Shown piece by piece: positions 5,688-20,798 of a stretch of 25,662 bases of DNA; the stretch's first letter is position 1; every line of letters begins with the position of its first letter. A model generated the notes under the pieces. It had not been told where the DNA came from, ran no database searches, and saw only the letters and a program-made list of their open reading frames with translations. The translations under genes and the position numbers were made by a program. This stretch comes from Cyclostephanos tholiformis (lineage: Eukaryota > Bacillariophyta > Thalassiosirophyceae > Thalassiosirales > Thalassiosiraceae). The DNA is taken from positions 1 through 25,662 of the forward strand of contig JALLPB010000075.1 in the NCBI GenBank assembly GCA_036939975.1, in the 5' to 3' direction.

Positions 5688-8600
5688 TCACAGAGCTTCG
5701 TCAATCTCAACACATAGGTCGCCACCGTCAAGCGTGTCACCTGCTGTCACCACCACTTGCTTCACAACACCATCACATGGGCTTGTGATCAAGGTCTCCA
5801 TTTTCATTGCTGATAAAAGAATAAGTGGATCTCCCATTTTGACTGTATCTCCTTTCTTAACTTTAGTCTCCAAAACCACCCCTGGCATTGCAGCACCGAT
5901 AGACCCCGTCACTCCTTCCAATGCCTTCAGCCTTTGGGTGTCCTTCACTCCTGCTCTTTTGTCCTTGACATGCACTGAGCGAGGTTGGCCATTCACCTCG
6001 AATTGTATATTCGCGATGCCATCTTTCGATGTTTCCCCTACAGATATCAATTTGAGAATCAAATGCTTACCCTTCTCAAGCGATACATTAAGTTCTTCGC
6101 CAACTTTCATTCCTGTCAGGAATGTGCGCGTGTCGAGGTAGCTCAGCTTGCCATATTCATTTTGGCGCTCCATGAACTCGTCAAAAACAGTGGGGTACAT
6201 TGCGTCTGGGTAGGAAAATGATTCGTTGCGGACCATGCTGAGTGTGATGCGAATAAATACCTTCAAGTAAAGCGTAAAACTCAAAAACTCACAGCTCATT
6301 ACATCGTATTTGCTAATCTTCTCTGTCCCCCACTTGTCTTCCAAATTAGCTCGAGTGCCTTCAAAGTCAAACGATGGAAGTTGCGCTCCAGGGCGCCCAG
6401 AAAAACAAGATAATCCATCTGTCCCTTTGATTGTCCTTCCTTTCAGAACTCTGCTTCTCAAAGGCTCAGGGAAGCCGAATGGTGGGATACCGAGGTAGCC
6501 CTGGAAATATTCAATGACGCTGGAAGGAAAACTTAATTGCTCGGCCTTTGACATGGAGGATGACGAGAACGAGAGGGATCGGTTCAAAAGGATATTTGAT
6601 GTCCATGGATACAGCGGAGTGCCAACAAAATCGCATTTGCCAGCGAATTAATACCGACTTACCTTTTCGATTACATCATTTTCTGTTAGCTTATTTGATA
6701 CGATGAACTGAGCCAAATCACCAGTCACTTTCGAAGAAGGGGTAACTTTAATAATATCCCCAAGTAAACGGTTGGCCGAGGAATAGGCCTGCTTTACTTG
6801 CGACCACTGACCTGTCAGACCCAATTGACTGGATTGATAAAGAAGGTTAGTATACTGGCCTCCTGGCATTTCGTGGAGGTATACATCAGCGGACCTGACG
6901 GATGTGCGACGAAACAAATGTCTGATTAATAGCAACTTGTTATTCAGAATTAAAAAAATTCACGAAATTCAATTACCCCGTTTTCTGCCCAGACTCGAAT
7001 GGTGCGTACAGACCACGACATTCTTCCCAATATTCGTTGAGCTTTAACACGTCATGAAGGTCTAGGAATAAAAAGAAGGAACAATTTTAATGATGGAAGA
7101 TAATTGGACAGTTTGACATGTCATTTGGGAGCACAACCGCAGACTCAAAGGACTAGGAAACGCATACGTAGTTGTTCAAAAAAACTTGCCTAGACCGGTG
7201 TCTAAATCCGTGTTTTGGGTACTGGCAACGAGGGCACCAAGACTTGGCTGTGATGTGGTCTGTGTATGAGATGTGGGAATAAACTAGTTAGTGACGGTGG
7301 GGACAGAATTTCATAAAAAAAAAGACGGTGGTTAGTCTTACCCCACTCATTGCATCTAATGCTGCGTCTACTACATCAGCTCCGGCAGCAGCAGCAGCTA
7401 GCATGCTGGAGACTGCGAGCCCGGCGGTATCATGAGTATGGACATGCACTGGTAGATTAGGGAATTCCTCCCGAATGGCACCAATAAGCAAAGTTGCTGC
7501 TTTTGGCTTCAGGAGTCCGGCCATATCTATTTGAAAAAAGCACATGAGAATGAAAGAATAAATTATACTAGCTCGATTGCAGTGGAAAGGTGTCCAGTAC
7601 CTACGCAGCGTGTTTCTCACCTTTGATAGCTAGAACGTGTATGCCTTGCTTTTCAAGTTCACGCACAAATTGAAGGTAGTACTCTAGATCATAGCATCCC
7701 CTTTTGGGATTTGAGACATCTCCAGTGTAACACACAGCAGCTTCCACGATGCCTCCAGCCTGGCCGACTGCATCAATACCAAGTTTCATGTTTTCGATGT
7801 AGTTCAACGAATCGAAGACGCGAAAGACGTCCATCCCTGATTCTTTCGCTAACTTACAGAATTGATACACAACATTATCAGCATAAGAAGTATACCCGAC
7901 AGCATTGGCACCGCGGAGCAACATTTGAAAAGGAACATCCGGCACGGCCTCACGGAGGTCGTTGAGGCGATCCCAAGGACATTCATGCAAGAATCGCATG
8001 CTCACATCGAACGTAGCTCCACCCCAGCACTCTAGTGAGTAAGCATTCCTCAATGCAACGCGTGTTGGTTCGGCAATTTTCAGCATGTCGATTGTTCGTA
8101 ATCGGGTAGCGAGCAAGCTCTGATGTGCGTCTCGCCAGGTCGTATCGGTAATTAGCAATCCCTCGTTTGCTCGAACCGCCTTCGCGAATGCTTCGGCGCC
8201 ATGCATATCGAAAATTTGTTTGAGCGATTGTTTTTTCTCCTTATGCTCTTGAACAATTTTGGGTATCATCGGGTCTACCGTCGATGGAGCCTCACCAGTC
8301 GCTCCAAGAGATTTCGGAGTACCGTTCAAAACCACCTCCCCGATGTAGTGCAACAACTTCTGGGCGCGGTCCTTCTCTTTCAATGGCGATAAAAGCGTCG
8401 GATTGGCGGCAATGAATCCTGTGTCGACCTCGCCATCAAGAAAGTCACTATTGGACAAAACATTTAAGAGGAAGGACTTATTCGTTTGTACACCGCGAAC
8501 ACGGAACTCCCGCAAAGCCCGAGTTAACTTTGCCGCCGCGTCCTTGCGATTGCGTGCTTTGGCTGTAATCTTCACAAGAAGCGAATCTGATGATAGAACC

Positions 8601-10665
8601 GAAAACATCGTTGTTGGCAACAGCTTTGACAAAAATAGCTCGTACTGAAACGAAAACTCTGGAGTTATAAAGATAACCATCATGACATACCGTAGTGTGG
8701 TGTAATCTTGGCACCAGGGAAGCCAGGTCCGTCATCTAGGCGAATGCCGAATCCGGCGGGCATCCTAAAGACGTCAATCGTACCGGTATCGGGCCTGAAA
8801 TCGTGAGCTGGGTTCTCGGTCGTGACACGGCACTGCATTGCATACGAATTAGGCTCGAGAATCAATTCCTGTGTCAGGCCTATCTCGGCCAGGGTCTTGC
8901 CGGACGCAATCAAGATCTGGCTTTGAACAATATCGATCCCCGTTATCTCCTCGGTAACAGTCTGTTCGTGAACGATGATTATGATGTTAGTGAACGAAAA
9001 TCCATAACTTAGGAGGCGTATCCTTTTTACTTACATGCTCAACCTGCACTCTCGGGTTCACTTCCATGAAGTAGTGTTGACCGTTCTTATCGACAAGGAA
9101 CTCCACCGTTCCCGCGTTCCTGTATTTGTTTAACGCGAGCAAATGGCAGGCATCGCGAAATATGTTCTCCCTCGTCTCGCGCGACAGTCCCGTGGCGGGC
9201 GCGGTCTCGATAACCTTCTGATGCCGACGCTGGACGGAGCAATCTCTATCGTACAAGTGCACGACGTTGCCGTTACCATCCCCCAGGCACTGGACCTCGA
9301 TGTGTCGAGGCCGATCGACGTACTTCTCCACGAAGCACCTGCCATCGCCGAACGCGTTCAGCGCCTCGTTGCTCGCGAGGCGGAACATGCCGTTCAAATC
9401 CGCCGCCGTGGGCACGATGCGTATGCCACGTCCACCACCGCCCATGGCGGCCTTGACAATTACAGGATAAGTAATCGGATTGCTCGGGCCGTTTATCCAC
9501 GCCTCGGCCTCGCCGGGTGTGGCGAACGCGCAATCGGATCCCGTGATGATGGGCACATTTGCTGGGTGATGATGGGAGACGGAGATGATTTTTGCGGAGG
9601 GCGGATTCAAGAAATTAGCTCGATGAAGAAAAAAATGTCGATATAACGTCAACATGACGCACCTTTGATTGCAAGCTCCTTCGCGGACGTTTTATCTCCA
9701 AATGTATTACTTTATAGTTTGAGTTACAAACGGCAGAGCGTATCGTTAGTAGAGAGGACGAGAGGAGAGATGATCGAACAAATCCAACACCATCCAATAA
9801 GAGACAAGGACATAAAGGTGATGGACGACACATCGTCCAACAATCCAACTCACAGATTTTCGACGGTGGGACCTATGAACTTCACCCCGGCCTCCTCCAA
9901 CTTTCTCGCAAAATTCGCATTCTCGCTCAAGAAGCCATAGCCCGGATGTACGGCCTGAACGCCATGTTGCAAGCAAAGTTTCACGATGGTATCGACGTCC
10001 AAATACGCGGCAACGGGCGATTTTTCGGTGTTGAGCTCGAACGCCTGATCGGCCTTGTATCGATGTTGGGTGAAGCGATCTTTTTTTTTGTCCATACATT
10101 ATGTTTTCGGTCGCATTCCATTGTCATGATATGAGAAACGTATCTACGAGAGACAAAAATCATATACAGGTATATACGTATACAACAACAATCACGTGAC
10201 AGGGAAGTGCGCAGTCGTCCGCCGCGAATGGACCGCAATCGTCATTCTCGTGTTCTTTCGCCACGTACCTTCTCGTGAATATATACCAACTGTACCGCAG
10301 CCCAATTCGCTCGCAGCCCTCATGATGCGTGTGGCGATTTCGCCGCGATTCGCGGCCATGACCTTGTCAAAGGGACGACCTCCGGTCGGCGGCACCTGCT
10401 GCTGCTGGGATGTGTCCGATGACGACGATAGGCCACGAATGATCGTCGTCGCGAGTTGTTGGGCCGCGGCGGCATAACGACGCCGACGTCGCGCGACGAC
10501 GATGGATCGCGAAAACGCGGGCGGGACGGCGCCCGATGATCGACGACCCTCTCCTCCGTGCCCGCCGATGCCTCGTGGACGATGCTGCCGCTGCTGCTGC
10601 AGTCTTCGAGCGACGTCGGTCGACGTCGTCGACGAAAACGATTGACGATGCAAATGACGAAGCAT
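5688..10665 (-). CDS. PYC: Pyruvate carboxylase, mitochondrial type, twelve exons
   Basis: Biotin enzyme: bicarbonate + ATP + pyruvate give oxaloacetate, refilling the TCA cycle. Exons: 10665-10269, 10079-9854, 9709-9663, 9561-9035, 8961-8691, 8586-7621, 7526-7342, 7259-7190, 7061-6977, 6894-6663, 6545-6293, 6205-5688; 3777 nt = 1258 aa. Residues 1 to about 97 are Arg/Ser/Gln-rich with almost no acidic residues, a mitochondrial presequence. Biotin carboxylase follows ([23 protein letters not shown]-grasp glycine loop [19 protein letters not shown]). Carboxyltransferase runs from about 632 (TTWRDAHQS 638-646, [11 protein letters not shown], metal ligands in [10 protein letters not shown]841 and H843). 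The C-terminal biotin carrier domain has AMKM with biotinyl-lysine K1221, 37 residues from the end. All introns are GT-AG except 7062-7189, which starts GC. Every splice junction rebuilds conserved family sequence. No plastid-type signal peptide is seen. Confidence 0.97.
7062..7189 (-). other. GC-AG intron in the pyruvate carboxylase gene
   Basis: The eighth intron begins GCAAGT and ends CTAG. Joining CTA G with AC CTT restores the conserved run [16 protein letters not shown], so the unusual donor is real unless the base is a sequencing error. GC donors are a known minor class of U2 introns and here the rest of the donor (G|GCAAGT) is an excellent match. Confidence 0.85.
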
Positions 10666-11944: not shown

Positions 11945-14150
11945 TTAGAAGCTGAATTTCTTTAAGGCTGGACTCATTGATGTCGACGTTCCACGTTCGT
12001 AGTTTTCGGTCTCTAAGGGATCCACAGTATGGTCGTCATCTTCTCCGTCCACAGTGCTCTCTTCATCCTCATCACTGTCCCCATTCTCCTCAGCGATAGA
12101 GTCAAATTTACCCTTATCCCGCTTCTTTCTCCTCATGGTAGTATCGACACCATCAAAATCAATTTTCTTCGATGGCATCTCGCTATCATCAACCATGAAG
12201 ACATTCCTGTCCTTTGTTCCCTCAGGACTGGACATAGTTCTATTGGGGTCAACGGAGGACTTGCGACGTTCGTCAACGACATACTCCTCCTCTTCCTCCA
12301 AAGAGCTATCGAGGTCCTCGCGGCTAGTATTTAATTCATCCTCATCAAACTCTTCCCATGCCTCCTCCTCGCATTCATCTGGCGCATCTTCGGCGGTGTA
12401 TCCCTCTATCAAGCCGAGCTGCACACGCTCTTTGATCTCTGCCTCGCTTAGCATGGCAATGCTGACAGAGTCACGACGGTGCACATACTGGTTGCGGTAC
12501 GCCGGACTGCGATTGATTACTTGCATCTTCTCAAAGTCGATAAGAATGCACCCCGCCATGGCATTGTTGCCTTGGTTGTGATCCTTGGACGTTGAGAATA
12601 CACTTGGGTCGGTAAGAAATAATAGATGAGTTAATGGGAAGGCTTGTGAAAATTTCGACCTGCACATTAAGACATATGGTATGCGCGACTCACGTGAACA
12701 CCCTTGCACCTTTTGACACTGCCACCCCTTCGGCATGAGCCTCGTGTGCACGCATAATGTACGAAAATCCCTGCTGTTGCAGGAAATTCGTAACGGCCTT
12801 GTGCCCAAAGCAAATAGCACCCCCACCGCGAAGGCTGTCCCCGTAGCCGGTATTTTTGTCCACGCTGTAATTTTCCTGATCCTCGGATGCGGGATCGGAC
12901 CAGATACAGTCTGACGCGACCTGCTGATAATCGTCCTCCTCGTGCTCGTACGGAGGGTTGATCCCGGCTACCTTACTCACGTTCAATATGTCCTTAATCC
13001 TCCCGCCCTCCACGGACGAGTCTGATACGGGACGGGGAATGCCGCCATGGACGCAGAAGATGTCCTGGTCGATGACGGCGGCCAGAGGCATCCGGTCGAA
13101 TGTCGAGTTAGTAAGCTCCCACACCTTGTAGCCGAGGTCGTCCCCGAACCGATCCCGACACTGGGCGATGAACGACCGGGCGCCGTAATGCTCCTCCCAC
13201 CCGTTGACGTCGCGAGTCTCGTGATTCCCCCGGAGTAGGAACACTTTCTGGGGAAGCATCAACTTCATCGCGAGGAGGTAAGCCACCACCTCCAGACAAG
13301 ACATGCCCCGATCGACGTAATCCCCCAGGAAGACGAAGTTGCCCGCGGTTAGGGCCATGCCCAAATTCCAAATATTATCCGAGAAGAAGTGCAGGTCCTC
13401 GAGATTGCCATGTATATCCCCGAAGACGTAGGCGGGACTTTGCAAGAAGACGCAACGCGGCTCGTCCTCTAGGATGCCCTTGACCTTCTTGTTGAGCTTG
13501 ATGAGGTCCTTGGCGAACTGCTCCGACTTCAGGTAGCCGACGTGCTCGTTGGGGCTGCGGAACATATCCTGTACGCGATTGATGAGGGCCTCCTTCGGCG
13601 ATGCCTCATCGGGCAGGGAGTTGAGAATGGCCTGGGTGGATATGGAGGCGTTACGGCCCATTCGTGCTCGTTCTGCCAGGAGCTGTTGGGGTGGGGGGGG
13701 GGGGGGGAGGGGGCAAGGTGAACATCGTCGATTGAGAGAGTGATAGATATGGAGGAAGAAAGAGAGGCACCAGGCGAAAAAAGGTAGCAAGCGTCAAGCA
13801 TAGGCAGCAAAGATGACTCCGACCACAACGACGATTCGCCCTACCTGACGCCTCTTGGCACTGCACTTCGAGGTGGAAACGCGGACGGTATTCCCATACG
13901 GCGTTAGCCCCTTTTTCCCCTTCCTCTGTCCCATGATCATGGCCTGCTCCTTACTAAGTCCCGAGATCTTATTCTTAAGGCCGATAACCTCCTTCTCCAG
14001 CGCTGCTATCTTAGCATCGCGCTCGCGAAGGAGGGACTTAGTCTGCTTGTCGGATATCGCGACGATAGTGCCATCGCGTGCCTCGCGCGACCTGCGCCGG
14101 TTGAATGTCGATCCGAGGCCGCCGATGCCGGCGTTTTGAAACACGTTCAT
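11945..14150 (-). CDS. PPP-family Ser/Thr protein phosphatase with N-terminal coiled coil and acidic tail
   Basis: Metal-dependent phosphoprotein phosphatase (PP1/PP2A/PP2B fold). Exons 14150-13845, 13682-12694, 12602-11945; 1953 nt = 650 aa. Residues 33-72 form a coiled coil ([20 protein letters not shown]), followed by a basic linker. The catalytic core carries the family motifs GDIHG (190-194), GDYVDRG (222-228), GNHE (254-257), HGG (314-316), WSDP and RAHE (413-416), with all metal-binding residues present. Between HGG and WSDP there is a longer, acidic insert than in PP1. The usual FSAPNY loop reads [11 protein letters not shown], so the toxin/inhibitor-binding face differs from PP1. After about residue 470 comes a Glu/Asp-rich, phosphorylatable-looking tail of 180 residues with a basic NLS-like MRRKKRDK. 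An in-frame ATG at 14303 would add 51 Arg/Ser-rich residues; I keep the shorter start. Subfamily and target are unknown. Confidence 0.9.
13683..13844 (-). other. Phosphatase intron 1 with long poly-C tract
   Basis: GT-AG intron (donor CAG|GTAGGG, acceptor CCCCAACAG). Its polypyrimidine tract contains a homopolymer of about 15-16 C on the coding strand (G run near 13692-13707 on the given strand), an unusually extreme splice-site tract and a slippage-prone site. Confidence 0.75.
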
Positions 14151-15157: not shown

Positions 15158-17347
15158 ATGTCCGAGCTTCAACGCAGCGGTGCTCTTCAGATAGAAAAAT
15201 GTGAAGGAAATCATTTGCGCACGAGATGTGAGATTCAATGCAGCCAGGAAAATCATAATGAGCAAGAGAACCGCTTCCCCTCAACTTTGCCAACCGCGGA
15301 AGACTGTGCAAACAATTTGTCGTCGATTTTCAGTACTAGGAGTGATAATATATCTGTTGCGAGCGAATCAACTCATTTGCCACGTAAAAATGAAGCGGAT
15401 AATCAGAGTAAACGGCAAGGTGTTCCAGAAAAACTCGTCCGATTTGCCCTGCCGGTCACGACGAACTTAAAGTCGCCGGCACATGACATTCATGTTCTTG
15501 GAAACGGGAGCGAACTGTTCGAAATAATATTATGCATAGAACGATGTCTTGATTTGTGTCAGCTGAGAGCGTCAACGAACGCAAGTGCATCAAGCAGTGC
15601 CAATCCAATCAGAAACCTGTGGTTGTCCTACCGTTTTATTGGAACCATCGTTCAAAGTGACATACTTTCCTATGACAACTCCATACCAATGATAAATACG
15701 TTTCGAATACAGAGCTCGTTGCCGGAGTTAGTACGTTACTTTAATGACAGGAAGAATGCGACATTGAGGATTCACTTGTGCACGGAAGGCGAGGTGCTAG
15801 GTACCTCGTCTATTGATTTACGGCAATTGATCGCTCCTGATCATGATTCCAAAGGAAGGATTTTGCAAAATGAATACATTATCAAATTACGCAGTACTGA
15901 TGATTCGAAAATAGCAGGTGACCAAGGGAGTAGTAATCCATGTCCTCCTCGTATTGCGGTCAAATTATGCATCGATCGCAGTTCTGTGATTGATGCCGTC
16001 GATAATTTTGAACTGTGCCCAGAGAGGGTGCGAAATACTGCTACTTTGTCTTCGTCCACATCTTCTCAAACGATTGCAATAGAATGTGATGATGAAGATC
16101 CCTCTCATAGAGTAAAAGAATCGGCTGATAAAGATTTGTGCGCTCATAATAAAGAAGAGCAATCAAGTGTCAGAGAAGCAGAGCTGTCACGGAGAGAAAA
16201 GGAATTATACCAAGCAACTGCTTCCCTCGAAAGGAAGCGCTGCGAATGGGAGCAATGGAGGTACCGACAAGAAGTAGACTGGCAAGAAAAACTTCGACAC
16301 AAGGAAGACGCGATGCTGAAAGTCGTTGAGGAACGCGCGCGTATTATTGAAAGGGAGCGATTAATTTCCCTTGAATTATCAAAGAACGAATATGAAAAAT
16401 TAGAAGCCAGGCTTCGAAAAGCTCTCATCGATGTTGAGGCGAAGGAACGGCAACTGAAAGACATTGAACTTGGACATCAACATGAACGTAAGAGGAGGCT
16501 TGCTGAGCTGGAATCGAGAGAAAAGCTGATGAAGGAAGAAATGAAGCACTCGATTGACATCGAGGTAAGATCTCTACCTACCATTTCTGCCAGTGTTATA
16601 TTATGCTAATGAAACATTTCTACTTCTGTGAGCAAGCGAGCCAAAACAAATGCAGCAATCGAGCAAGCTGTCATTGCTGGGAAAGCTATGGCTGCAGCAA
16701 ACAAGAAAGTAGATCAGATGGTATCCGAGATGGATCGGCTACGCGAACAACATAGAGCAACACCGGAATACACCCTGCTGCACAAGTTAGCCGAACTCAC
16801 AGGGCAGCTTGCGGATAGCGAAAGACGAATCGAAATATTGAAAGCGGAGAAGAATCAAGTTAACTCTGAAAAGGAGCAATTTCGATCAAATGTTCATAAA
16901 TTGGTAAGGTGTCTTGTACGTTTTGGGTGAAAGTACCATCGAAGATCTTTATTCACTGACTGCCTACATGTCGCGCAGGCAAAAGCACTTCGGCTCGAGA
17001 GGAAAAAGGCTGCTACAAAGAGAGAATTCAACAATCAGCAAGCTCGCCTAAGTTATGATACAAATGAAAAGTCGTTCTTGCTCGGTGGTGGGCAAGCTGA
17101 AGTACAGCAAATCTTGACGGACCTATACAAAATTTCACAAATCAAAGGGCAGCCCATTGCTACAGGTGGTTCCTATGACAGTCAGAACTGTGTGGTGTCG
17201 CAAGACAACAATGCGCATCCAACGCCAAGTGCACAGCCATTGCGCCCGCCAAACAATGTTTACGATTATGTCGGACATTCATCTATGCAACCACAGGGTG
17301 CATCGCATGTTGTAGATTTAAATGATATGCTAGCATACCCAGGATGA
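15158..17347 (+). CDS. CEP120: CEP120-like centriolar protein (C2 domain plus coiled coil), three exons
   Basis: Centriole-elongation protein family. Exons 15158-16564, 16637-16903, 16979-17347; introns of 72 and 75 bp, GT-AG; 2043 nt = 680 aa. Residues 1-105 are disordered. Residues about 110-275 look like a C2 domain of the CEP120 type (LFEIILCIERCLDL, LWLSYRFIGTIVQSD, LRIHLCTEGEVLGTSSIDLR). Residues about 330-605 are a long coiled coil; EYEKLEARLRKALIDVEAKE and the later YTLLHKLAELTGQLADSE to KALRLERKKA resemble in order the C-terminal coil of animal CEP120, which in animals binds centriolar partners. The C-terminal 60 residues are polar. At 680 aa it is shorter than the roughly 990-aa animal proteins, apparently having fewer C2 domains. 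In a diatom it would act in basal bodies of flagellated gametes. Another C2/coiled-coil centrosomal protein is the alternative. Confidence 0.72.
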
Positions 17348-17498: not shown

Positions 17499-18941
17499 CT
17501 AAAACACAAAACACGCACCCAGACAGATGTTAACATCGTCGTCATTGTCGTCATCGAGATCTGCATCTACCTCATTGACATTTCTGCCATCGTCGTTGCC
17601 ATAGCCGTCGTCGTTGTCTTCATTGTCATAGTCATCAATCAGGTAAGACAGTACGTTTGGGACGATAATTTTAACCATTGTAATGGAATCGATACGACAC
17701 TGCATCTTCGCATTTTTACTGAGAGTTTCACAGTTCCGGTCACACTGTTCGGTTATTTTTGCTTTCCAGATAGCAAGTTCCAATATTGTGGGGGAGTCGC
17801 TCAATTTTTCGTAGATAGAAAGCTTGAAATCGATGAAATGAAAATAAGGGTTCAAATCAATGGGAGGGATGGCAGGAATGCGCCTAATCATGTCGTGAAT
17901 ATGCATCTGCCATTTCCTATCTTGCACAAGACCGAAACGCTCCGGAATATTTTGTTGGGCGAAAAAGCTGTATGTACGCAGGGACCTTTCGTGAACTCCG
18001 TGATTCCACCAATGCCGAATAGACTCCCCGGATACGAACTGTTCAATCTCATCACAAAACCGGACATTTGTCAATTTTGTGCAATTTTCAAACGCCTTCT
18101 CGTCAATCTCTTTAACAGTGGAGGGGATAACGATGCGATGGAGCGATGTGCACTGGCGAAATGCCCACATCTCAATAGTCTCCAGCCCATCACAAAGCTC
18201 GACAGTCATCAACTTCGAGCAACGATCGAAAGTACGTTCGTTAATATTTTTTACTGATGGTGGGATCACGATGCCCCGCAGTGATGTGCATTCGCGAAAT
18301 GCCGAATGCCCGATCTTCTCAACCCCATCACAAAGCACCACATTCATCAATTGCGAACACCTGCGGAATGCCCCAGTACCTATCACTTTTACAGAAGGGG
18401 AGATCACGATGCGACGTAATGATCTGCAATTGAAAAATGCCGCACTTCCTATCTTCTCGAGCCCCATGCCAAGATTCACATTCCTCAACCGGGAGCAGTG
18501 ACTAAATGCCCCAGTATAGATCAATTTGACAGATGGGGGGACAATGATGTCACGTAATGACGTGCACCAGCAAAATGCCCCATCCCCAATCTCCACCAGC
18601 TCCTTGCCTAGATCCACGTGCCTCAACTGCGAGCAGCTACGGAATGCATCTTCGTAAATCACCTTGACGGATGGGGGGATCACAATGTGACTTAATGATC
18701 GACAATCATGAAATGCCGCATTCCCTATCTTCTCCAGCCCCTCGCATAGATCCACATGCCTCAACCGCGTGTGGCGGAAAAATGCCCCCGCATCAATCAC
18801 TCTGACAGAATCATGAACTTTGACATGAGTTACATCTCGTGGTATATCGCCCCTCCCATGCCCTGTATAAACGTAGTCCCTTCGTTCGCTCCCGGTGTCG
18901 CTCGTGTCTTCGCTCAACCGTTTGCTCCAGATATCACCCAT
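17499..18941 (-). CDS. BspA-like leucine-rich-repeat (LRR_5) protein
   Basis: Intronless, 480 aa from the first ATG in frame (MGDIWSKR). After a short leader with GDIPRDVTHVKVHDSVRVI, residues about 45-290 are ten LRR_5-type repeats of 23 residues arranged as five 46-residue pairs: one half with ...AF..CS.L..V.L...LE.IG, the other with AF..C.SL..IVIPPSVK.I. A degenerate sixth pair follows. LRR_5/BspA-like repeats are expanded in diatoms and other protists; ligand and location are unknown, and no signal peptide or membrane segment is seen, so an intracellular role is likelier than a surface one. Residues about 310-420 form a conserved-looking helical domain (WWNHGVHERSLRTYSFF, IERFGL-like), and the last 50 residues are an Asp/Asn-rich tail from a GAC/GAT/AAC microsatellite. 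Family is firm, function open. Confidence 0.88.
   Translation of the reverse strand: MGDIWSKRLSEDTSDTGSERRDYVYTGHGRGDIPRDVTHVKVHDSVRVIDAGAFFRHTRLRHVDLCEGLEKIGNAAFHDCRSLSHIVIPPSVKVIYEDAFRSCSQLRHVDLGKELVEIGDGAFCWCTSLRDIIVPPSVKLIYTGAFSHCSRLRNVNLGMGLEKIGSAAFFNCRSLRRIVISPSVKVIGTGAFRRCSQLMNVVLCDGVEKIGHSAFRECTSLRGIVIPPSVKNINERTFDRCSKLMTVELCDGLETIEMWAFRQCTSLHRIVIPSTVKEIDEKAFENCTKLTNVRFCDEIEQFVSGESIRHWWNHGVHERSLRTYSFFAQQNIPERFGLVQDRKWQMHIHDMIRRIPAIPPIDLNPYFHFIDFKLSIYEKLSDSPTILELAIWKAKITEQCDRNCETLSKNAKMQCRIDSITMVKIIVPNVLSYLIDDYDNEDNDDGYGNDDGRNVNEVDADLDDDNDDDVNICLGACFVF
18110..18815 (-). repeat. 138-bp coding tandem repeat of the LRR gene
   Basis: Five consecutive units of 46 codons (138 bp) encode LRR pairs, with words such as CCATCTGTCAA/GGGGGGATCACAATG recurring at about 138-bp spacing on the given strand. 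Units are diverged, so duplications are not recent, but the dimeric period shows the gene grew by pair duplication. Confidence 0.75.
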
Positions 18942-19284: not shown

Positions 19285-20798
19285 ATGATGGCGACGAAGT
19301 CGACCTTCATCGACACCTCTACGGAGTGCGCAATCTGCCTCGAATCGCTGGACGATGATCCCGAGAGAACGATCACCCTCGCGTGCGGACATCGATGGCA
19401 CTTCGCTTGTCTGAGAGAGCAGCTCGTAAGTGCCGGACCGGGCCGATCCGAGAGGCTGATATTCTCGGGATGTCGATGTGCCAAATGCGCCGCATTTTGC
19501 GACCATCCCAAATTGGAAAATTTGACCCGTCGGACGGATGCATTGAGGGGGAAGGTGGATCGCCTCGTGGAGGAGCAATTGAGGGCGGATATCCCCGAGG
19601 GATGGAAACGTGCCGTTAATGATGCGGATGAAATGGCGAGGCTAATCGACGAGGGTCGTCGTTCCTACGCGTTTTATCTCTGCGGGGGTTGCGATGAACC
19701 GTACTTCGGGGGGACCATCGAGTGCGCCGACGAGGATGGTGTAGAGCTCGTTACATCCGAGGATAGACTCTGCCAGTCCTGTTCGCCGAAGTCTCGGGTG
19801 GTATGCCAACGCACATTTGAGCACAGACCCTATCATGTCTGGAAATGCCGATACTGTTGCAGTCCATCGAGATTTGTTTGTTATGGCAATGTCCACTTTT
19901 GCGACAGTTGTCATGATAGGAATTCGCAACGACGTCGGGGGGCAGGGCCTGCGAAATTGGAGGGAATACCGTGCCGTGGGGGCGACTGTGCGTTTCCTAT
20001 GCCCGCTGGATCCGAACGACACTCCAATGGTTCGTCCCTGGATTGCGAACAAGTGTATCATTGTGCTATCTGCGATTCGTCTCCGTCGGGCCATTCCTTC
20101 AACGAGCTCCCTGGATCAAGAAACCTAATAATCAATCCTAGTGGAGAGGAAGGCACGAGAGGGTGGCAGGTCGATCCACGTCATAGGAAATGGGCCATCG
20201 AGCGAATGGAAATTTCAGTAGATGAGAACACAAGCTGCAATTTTGTGAGCAGCTACTATTGGAGTGTCATGTCACAAAGCATACCACTACATCGTATTGT
20301 GCGTCAACCATCGATGGCACGTTTAGAGATATCAGCGAAGTTTATGGGAAGGACAGATTGCCCATCAGTCTTCAAACTTCAAGCCGTTGTAATGAATTCT
20401 CAGAAAAGCGTGATCCATCAATCTAACACCTCTCTGTTGACCGCCCCAGTGGACTTTTGGGAGAAGGTATCATTAATTATAGAGCCTATCGAGGGCGCTC
20501 ATGAAGTAGCAATGATTGTGTGTGGCAAGGATGAGCGTTTTTGGCAGGGTAACTTCGGTTCCAAAGTTTGTCACTGCTCTATTCGGGTGTTAGGCTCGCA
20601 ACAGGAGCTGGAAAACATTCTCATAACTGGGTGAGTTGCATGCCGTTTGCACTTTTCCTCAGAATGGCACAGCTCTGATTGATCATCCACACCCATCATA
20701 GGCAGCACCAGGCTAATAGAAGATTTAAAAGAGAACGACTTATTGAAATCGTCCTTCCCACACTGCTGATCATTCTTTTATGGATGTTGTCTGACTGA
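19285..20798 (+). CDS. RING/tandem-cysteine (MYCBP2-type) E3 ubiquitin ligase fused to an FBA domain, with C-terminal membrane anchor
   Basis: Predicted ubiquitin ligase. Exons 19285-20630 and 20702-20798 (71-bp intron, donor GG|GTGAGT, acceptor ATCATAG); 480 aa. Residues 15-68 are a RING-H2 (CAIC, CGHRWHFAC, CAKC). After a helical linker, 128-263 match the tandem-cysteine domain that follows the RING in MYCBP2/PHR: YFGG at 140, WKCRYCC at 186, FCDSCHD at 205, LEGIPC at 225, CAIC at 260. In MYCBP2 this module passes ubiquitin along two cysteines (RING-Cys-relay) to Ser/Thr. Residues 279-440 match the FBA domain of Fbs-type F-box proteins (NLIINPSGEEGTRGW, then FWQGNFGSKV). The second exon adds a basic stretch and a hydrophobic segment, LIEIVLPTLLIILLWML, a tail-anchor signal. 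There is no F-box. Without splicing the protein would stop at 20634, lacking the anchor. Domain calls are firm; the fusion's substrate is unknown. Confidence 0.88.

Follow-up and report, generated by a model that had tools for sequence, protein, structure and literature searches.

Can a single short polypeptide hold both a two-cysteine ubiquitin relay of the MYCBP2 type and a substrate receptor of the FBA type, and if so, what would it do? This question was raised by an open frame of 449 amino acids at positions 19285-20634 (+) in a contig of the diatom Cyclostephanos tholiformis; the whole stretch analysed, 25,662 nucleotides of contig JALLPB010000075.1, is hereafter called the window. An earlier note, made from the letters alone, had described the product as a compact RING-Cys-relay (RCR) ubiquitin ligase (E3) fused to an FBA domain, and knew of no described protein with this layout. 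We likewise found no description of a combination of RING, tandem-cysteine (TC) and FBA domains in diatoms or red algae in the open-licence literature. The protein is not a one-off, however: diatoms and red algae hold a whole family with its layout. The reading to which we lean, with confidence somewhat short of even, is that the gene encodes a single-chain, tail-anchored RCR E3 whose FBA domain would bind N-glycans of glycoproteins exported from the endoplasmic reticulum (ER), and in which ubiquitin would pass from C147 to C199 and on to a hydroxyl group.

Three domains in one diatom protein

The RING domain lies at about residues 14-72 (19324..19500, +), where Pfam zf-RING_11 and zf-RING_2 both scored over cut-off; zf-RING_11 covered residues 14-43 with E 3.7e-8, and the Pfam placement of the RING was 14-47 overall. 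A MYCBP2-type TC domain, assigned by homology to MYCBP2, follows at about residues 128-268 (19666..20088, +), and an FBA domain occupies residues 276-435 (20110..20589, +) with a Pfam E value of 1.6e-16. In phmmer searches against the PDB, the MYCBP2 RCR (PDB 5o6c) matched residues 10-218 at E 9.4e-18 and Fbs1 matched residues 277-434 at E 1.3e-10; with a profile of 56 rows, the values were E 2.5e-36 for MYCBP2 and E 8.6e-24 for Fbs1. To rule out a MYCBP2 match that rested on the RING alone, we searched residues 120-268 separately, and at E up to 1 this TC part hit only two PDB entries, both MYCBP2 (E 9.4e-14). Given these Pfam and phmmer values, including those of the TC-only search, the kinship of the domains is far beyond chance, and the three-part layout described in the earlier note was borne out. 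Its statement that the protein has no F-box also held: none was among the six Pfam families reported for the window protein at E up to 10, nor was one detected in 61 scanned family members at E up to 0.01.

Structural matches of the predicted whole-protein model covered residues 266-446 only, and the RCR part was therefore modelled alone. The FBA region of the model adopts the predicted Fbs-type beta-sandwich fold. For the RCR-only model, the structural matches ranked below the two RCR entries covered the RING only. The fit of the RCR part to MYCBP2 is weighed below.

Could the RING-TC and FBA parts have been joined by an erroneous gene model from two separate genes? They share one open frame here, zf-RING_11 and FBA occurred together in 61 of 61 scanned relatives, and five MMETSP-derived open reading frames (ORFs; P0004, P0007, P0014, P0039 and P0041) carry both parts in one frame. 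The suspicion that the two parts belong to separate transcripts is thereby countered, and an artefact of this kind is refuted for the family and has next to no probability for the window gene.

Relay residues and sugar-contact positions

Catalytic residues were counted over 145 family members including the window protein, an earlier count having covered 121. We take C4572, H4583, E4534, F4573, F4578 and F4586 to be the residue numbers of the MYCBP2 relay, triad and Thr pocket; the numbering offset was set on C4572 and agrees with the chain numbering of the structure. C147 (19723..19725, +) corresponds to the upstream relay cysteine C4520 and is cysteine in 145/145 members. C199 (19879..19881, +) corresponds to the downstream, esterifying C4572, and H210 (19912..19914, +) to the triad histidine H4583; each is invariant in 144/144 aligned rows, the row with a gap at C199 being a Rhodosorus gene model without that stretch. 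D160 (19762..19764, +) falls at the position of the triad acid E4534, in a gappy stretch of the alignment where 74 members carry D, 39 E, 11 Q and 21 another residue, so that 113/145 are acidic. Most of the remaining cysteines in the TC domain have MYCBP2 counterparts as well. Two of the three aromatic residues of the MYCBP2 Thr pocket are kept in kind, F4573 as Y200 (Y in 136/144) and F4578 as F205 (F in 133/144). In MYCBP2, ubiquitin is described as being relayed via two cysteines to a Cys-His-Glu site with a preference for Thr (PMC9527308), and C4520S has been used as an inactive mutant (PMC12664034). Of the relay candidates named before, C199 stands as the counterpart of C4572. C230 lies within a C-terminal block that two alignments placed differently, and neither sets it against a relay cysteine; the residue that comes first in the relay is instead C147.

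The linchpin, the residue that follows the final zinc ligand of the RING, is usually basic in RINGs that transfer ubiquitin directly. In 132 rows of the family it was G in 90, A in 13, N in 9, S in 6, K in 6, R in 1 and another residue in 7. The intact RING would also suit a conventional RING ligase that passes ubiquitin directly from the E2 to the substrate and has the TC domain for structure only. Against this stand the two relay cysteines and the histidine in every aligned row, the acid in 113 of 145 and the G or A at the linchpin in 103 of 132, and we regard an ordinary RING ligase as improbable. Since both relay cysteines, the histidine and mostly the acid are conserved across the 145 members, the capability for a relay is strongly supported by the alignment, and relay activity is very probable. 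Direction towards Ser/Thr is plausible, with two pocket aromatics kept in kind and the third replaced, and we consider transfer to a hydroxyl group somewhat likelier than transfer to another acceptor.

At the other end of the protein, the residues of Fbs1 that contact GlcNAc-GlcNAc are described as F177, Y279 and W280 (PMC4603797). The window protein places Y324, F419 and W420 at these sites, and in the family alignment the three positions are F/Y in 131/142, F/Y in 132/140 and W in 140/140. The T215 position of Fbs1 is T in 126/142 and its D216 position is D in 142/142. The conserved positions suggest that glycan binding by the FBA domain is reasonably probable.

The predicted second exon and the hydrophobic tail

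The earlier note had the protein running to 20798 in a single open frame. RING, TC and FBA do share one frame at 19285-20634, whereas the last 31 of 480 residues need splicing to a second exon. Exon 1 (19285..20630, +), defined by the open frame and a donor GTGAGT at 20631, would encode the RING, linker helices, the TC domain and FBA as residues 1-448 plus two bases of codon 449. It would be followed by a predicted 71-base intron, GTGAGT...CATAG (20631..20701, +), with GT at 20631 and AG at 20701, and by exon 2 (20702..20798, +), which holds a 31-residue C-terminal tail and the stop codon. Splicing at 20631/20701 gives a predicted protein of 480 amino acids that ends at 20798.

Exon 2 was assessed by tblastn of the hydrophobic tails of 57 relatives against the window. 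The tail of P0003 aligned at 20706-20792 with 59% identity (E 5.9e-9), followed by those of P0014 (E 3.4e-7), P0031 (E 3.6e-7) and P0005 (E 3.0e-6). Because chance matches elsewhere in the window reached E 6e-4 to 8e-4 (the strongest from P0096), these four alone count as clear (E 3e-6 or lower); five others were marginal, and most of the 57 tails gave no match. The match of the P0003 tail from 20706 on favours acceptor 20701 over those at 20719, 20722 and 20731, which leave the frame unchanged (proteins of 474, 473 and 470 amino acids). The combination GT20631/AG20705, giving a 469-amino-acid form, was rejected: it scored at most 24 against the relatives' tails, compared with 92 for GT20631/AG20701.

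Within exon 2 lies a hydrophobic segment of 17 residues, a putative tail anchor two residues from the C terminus (20739..20789, +). The segment was called by a simple Kyte-Doolittle hydropathy rule; its mean is 2.59, whereas no other part of the 480-residue protein exceeds 1.32. A hydrophobic segment at the extreme C terminus with none elsewhere is, by hydropathy, the pattern of a tail anchor. The earlier note had missed this segment, which changes the functional reading of the protein. It recurs in 57 of the 145 members, at a median of 4 residues from the end and within 10 residues in 52; the remaining members comprise 61 short ones (at most 35 residues after FBA) and 27 long ones without a segment. 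All 57 are among the 123 diatom-type members, the others being 60 short ones and 6 long ones; in 5 of the 60 there is almost nothing after FBA, or FBA itself is truncated, and some short members, like the window's own ORF, are frames of genomic DNA that end inside an intron. In the tree described below, the segment occurs in 27 of 47 diatom-type rows and in 0 of 22 family rows outside.

How the other members end was also recorded. P0076, P0080 and P0083 have no hydrophobic tail and share similar GGET/AGET-like ends, perhaps a lineage-specific C terminus. P0026 from Thalassiosira profunda, 1 of 61 members, continues from RCR-FBA into an FKBP-type prolyl isomerase, either a fused gene model or a true domain that replaces the tail. 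Of 21 sequences not belonging to the diatom-type clade, three (P0109, P0114 and P0217) have CaaX-like ends, too few for a claim of lipid anchoring.

The tail may not be a stable anchor, or may be used in some lineages or isoforms only; a retained intron would give a soluble 449-amino-acid form, and the enzyme would then be mainly soluble. The MMETSP ORF P0004 and several database models that stop shortly after FBA fit such a view, as do the 22 tail-less rows outside the diatom-type clade. It is opposed by the 57 of 145 members that carry the segment, 52 of them with it no more than 10 residues from the C terminus, and by the stretch between FBA and tail, which varies widely in length while the segment stays at the very C terminus. 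We therefore consider a mainly soluble enzyme unlikely, and membrane anchoring in diatoms highly probable.

In the tail-anchored reading, the RING would bind E2~ubiquitin, C147 would accept ubiquitin by transthiolation and relay it to C199, and C199, together with H210 and the acid at 160, would hand it to a hydroxyl group of Ser/Thr or possibly of a sugar. The FBA domain would serve as a built-in substrate receptor, most likely for the chitobiose core of N-glycans, and the tail would keep the enzyme on the cytosolic side of a membrane. The likeliest is the ER membrane, at which glycoproteins come out during ER-associated degradation (ERAD). We see the chances of a role in the ER and in glycoprotein degradation as about evenly balanced. 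SELMA is an ERAD-like system of the plastid whose components carry an N-terminal bipartite plastid signal. The RING of the window protein starts at residue 14, which leaves no space in this frame for N-terminal signal and transit peptides, though an upstream exon may exist.

Several observations weigh against this reading. The RCR part of the predicted model fits MYCBP2 with a root mean square deviation of 5 A over 152 residues only, and its residues 151-160 have a pLDDT of about 60. Neither D nor E stands at the acid position in 32 of 145 rows, and the third pocket aromatic, F4586, is replaced by N213 (N in 124/144). The hydrophobic segment is absent in 88 of 145 members (the 22 outside the diatom-type clade and the 60 short and 6 longer diatom-type ones), including the named models Seminavis P0080 and Cyclotella P0013 and P0025 and the MMETSP ORF P0004; the sequence of exon 2 was matched by only 9 of the 57 tails at E <= 0.01, and by 6 with composition correction. 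That the membrane is the ER rather than another is a guess. In the FBA domain, no residue of the family alignment corresponds to N159 of Fbs1, and the K281 position is variable (Q, A or other). Furthermore, FBG3/FBXO44 is described as keeping the aromatic trio (Tyr, Tyr, Trp), yet not binding sugar, owing to its loop conformations (PMC4603797). The trio is thus necessary but not sufficient for sugar contact, and because FBG3 has it without binding sugar, glycan binding is not provable from sequence. There is an appreciable, though lesser, chance that the protein is a relay E3 whose FBA domain is an FBG3-like receptor for proteins and whose tail goes to the mitochondrial, peroxisomal or outer plastid membrane, with no link to N-glycans or ERAD. 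The sugar-contact positions kept across the family, on the other hand, are those on which the glycan reading draws.

A family in diatoms and red algae

A search with the whole protein gave 172 relatives at E <= 1e-3. Among the best 120 of these 172, the named ones were diatoms (Thalassiosira, Cyclotella, Stephanocyclus, Skeletonema, Fragilaria, Seminavis, Cylindrotheca and Epithemia), with the sole exception of P0109, which is filed under the red alga Purpureofilum and is possibly a contaminant. A search from P0109 gave 156 matches, and the 120 of these 156 listed added red-algal members from long genome contigs: Gracilariopsis chorda P0221, named 'highwire', on a 590 kb contig, and Rhodosorus marinus P0217, a gene model without its middle part, on a 3.19 Mb contig. 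In a six-frame search of the window genome (24.95 Mb, 1566 contigs), the ligase gene was the sole match to the protein at E <= 0.001 and the sole FBA match, and Skp1 was present. The human RCR (P0124), used there to look for a further RCR protein or a giant MYCBP2, found the ligase gene and a weak RING-sized match (E 0.0019, C1046) in an assembly that may be incomplete. A scan of IMG/VR viral sequences with the family alignment yielded 14 pattern-matching stretches and zero relatives.

For a wider view, a profile of the RCR alone was searched (candidates about 142-451 amino acids). The best 120 of 524 matches consisted of the diatom and red-algal family, MYCBP2-type sequences and a few fragments or odd ends; most of these MYCBP2-type sequences carried the RCR at, or close to, their C-terminal end, and the named ones were animal. 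Six bivalve sequences (P0178, P0179, P0180, P0187, P0210 and P0213) are stand-alone MYCBP2-like RCRs of 290-321 residues, which would be another compact form if the models are complete.

A tree was built from 76 sequences, 69 of the 145 family rows (hand-picked as named, divergent or diverse) and 7 from animals. The diatom-type clade of 47 rows was supported at 100/99. Three rows outside it have red-algal names (P0109, P0217 and P0221), and most of the rows outside it are metagenome proteins. The base of the family was an open fork, with a branch of 2.65 to the animals, and did not settle a nesting of diatoms inside red algae. The presence of the family in both groups could reflect transfer with the red-algal endosymbiont; as the base of the tree lacks resolution, this is a suggestion. 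A fuller account would combine the pieces: one ER-anchored polypeptide recognises N-glycans by its FBA domain and, by a two-cysteine relay, forms ubiquitin esters either with Ser/Thr at the glycosylation site or with the sugar; the family arose long ago in red algae and reached diatoms, possibly with the endosymbiont, and gained its membrane tail there. Taken as a whole, we hold this account to be rather unlikely.

Just before the RING, four members that do not belong to the diatom-type clade (P0109, P0122, P0215 and P0217) have a Cys-rich motif, and many animal MYCBP2-type sequences hold a Cys-rich motif at the same position. A pattern composed after viewing the sequences occurred in 4 of 145 family members, in 42 of 89 other sequences from the RCR search (the 89 include P0149 and P0168, by appearance diatom fragments) and in 0 of 46800 shuffles. 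With this motif on both sides, the resemblance of the family to MYCBP2 seems to extend beyond the RCR core.

The ligase gene adjoins a divergently oriented gene for a 480-residue BspA-type leucine-rich repeat protein (17502-18941, -; LRR_5 E 6.8e-78). Elsewhere in the window we noted a transposase-like ORF with a DDE_3 superfamily endonuclease domain at the window edge (17-991, +; E 2.1e-11), an ORF with PYC_OADA and biotinyl domains (5691-6554, -) and ORFs at 7601-10665 (-) that by eye resemble further exons of the same pyruvate carboxylase. A calcineurin-like phosphoesterase domain at 12693-13661 (-; E 3.1e-24) appears by eye to belong to a Ser/Thr protein phosphatase, and a Cep120-type DUF3668 (15158-16606, +; E 2.3e-9), followed by a charged, coiled-coil-like stretch, points to a centriole-type protein in a diatom.

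Compared with MYCBP2/PHR/Highwire (PDB 5o6c, 6t7f), the family shares the RING and TC domains, both relay cysteines, the triad histidine, usually the acid and most cysteines of the module, and its four members with the pre-RING Cys-rich motif share that with many animal sequences. It differs in size (about 480 residues in the window protein, more than 4600 in MYCBP2) and in the place of the RCR, which is N-terminal, with FBA after it and, in many diatom-type members, the hydrophobic tail as well, whereas the RCR of MYCBP2 is C-terminal; the acid is often Asp, and F4573 and F4586 are replaced by Y and N. The giant animal protein MYCBP2 is the example of an RCR ligase given in PMC9527308, PMC10959754, PMC12664034, PMC13061254, PMC13270118 and PMC13008643, and a 2026 compendium of human E3s treats it as an atypical E3 (PMC13061254). 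Automatic annotation had already caught the RCR kinship, as the database names 'protein ligase MYCBP2' (Seminavis) and 'highwire' (Gracilariopsis) attest. P0221, in full 'E3 ubiquitin-protein ligase highwire', is a red-algal member with the same RING-TC-FBA layout and no hydrophobic tail. A red-algal inventory of E2s and E3s names a Highwire gene in relatives of Gracilaria, and the words FBA, MYCBP2 and 'F-box associated' are absent from it (PMC10506303); from the name, this would be the gene of P0221.

Unlike Fbs1/FBXO2 and Fbs2/FBXO6, the family has no detected F-box and carries its ligase engine in the same chain, for which reason Skp1 and cullin should be unneeded, and many diatom-type members add the tail. 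SCF-FBS2 with ARIH1 is described as placing oxyester-linked ubiquitin on GlcNAc and on Ser/Thr in sequons of the ERAD substrate Nrf1 (Yoshida 2024, via PMC13270118). The likeness lies in glycoprotein recognition by FBA and in an oxyester-making cysteine ligase, both of which we infer for the diatom protein; that system, however, is a multi-subunit cullin assembly with an RBR ligase, whereas the diatom protein is one polypeptide with an RCR module. SCF-FBS2/ARIH1 may thus be the nearest functional precedent, by analogy, for a window protein that, with no F-box detected, is not a member of the SCF family.

These results show that the RCR module also occurs outside animals. The compact algal family offers an independent test of which residues are needed for relay and hydroxyl preference, and a small natural enzyme with its receptor attached would be convenient for structural work and for work on ester-linked ubiquitylation. 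It would also make it possible to ask directly whether glycan recognition goes together with ester ubiquitylation in organisms other than animals, which use the many subunits of SCF-FBS2/ARIH1 for the task.
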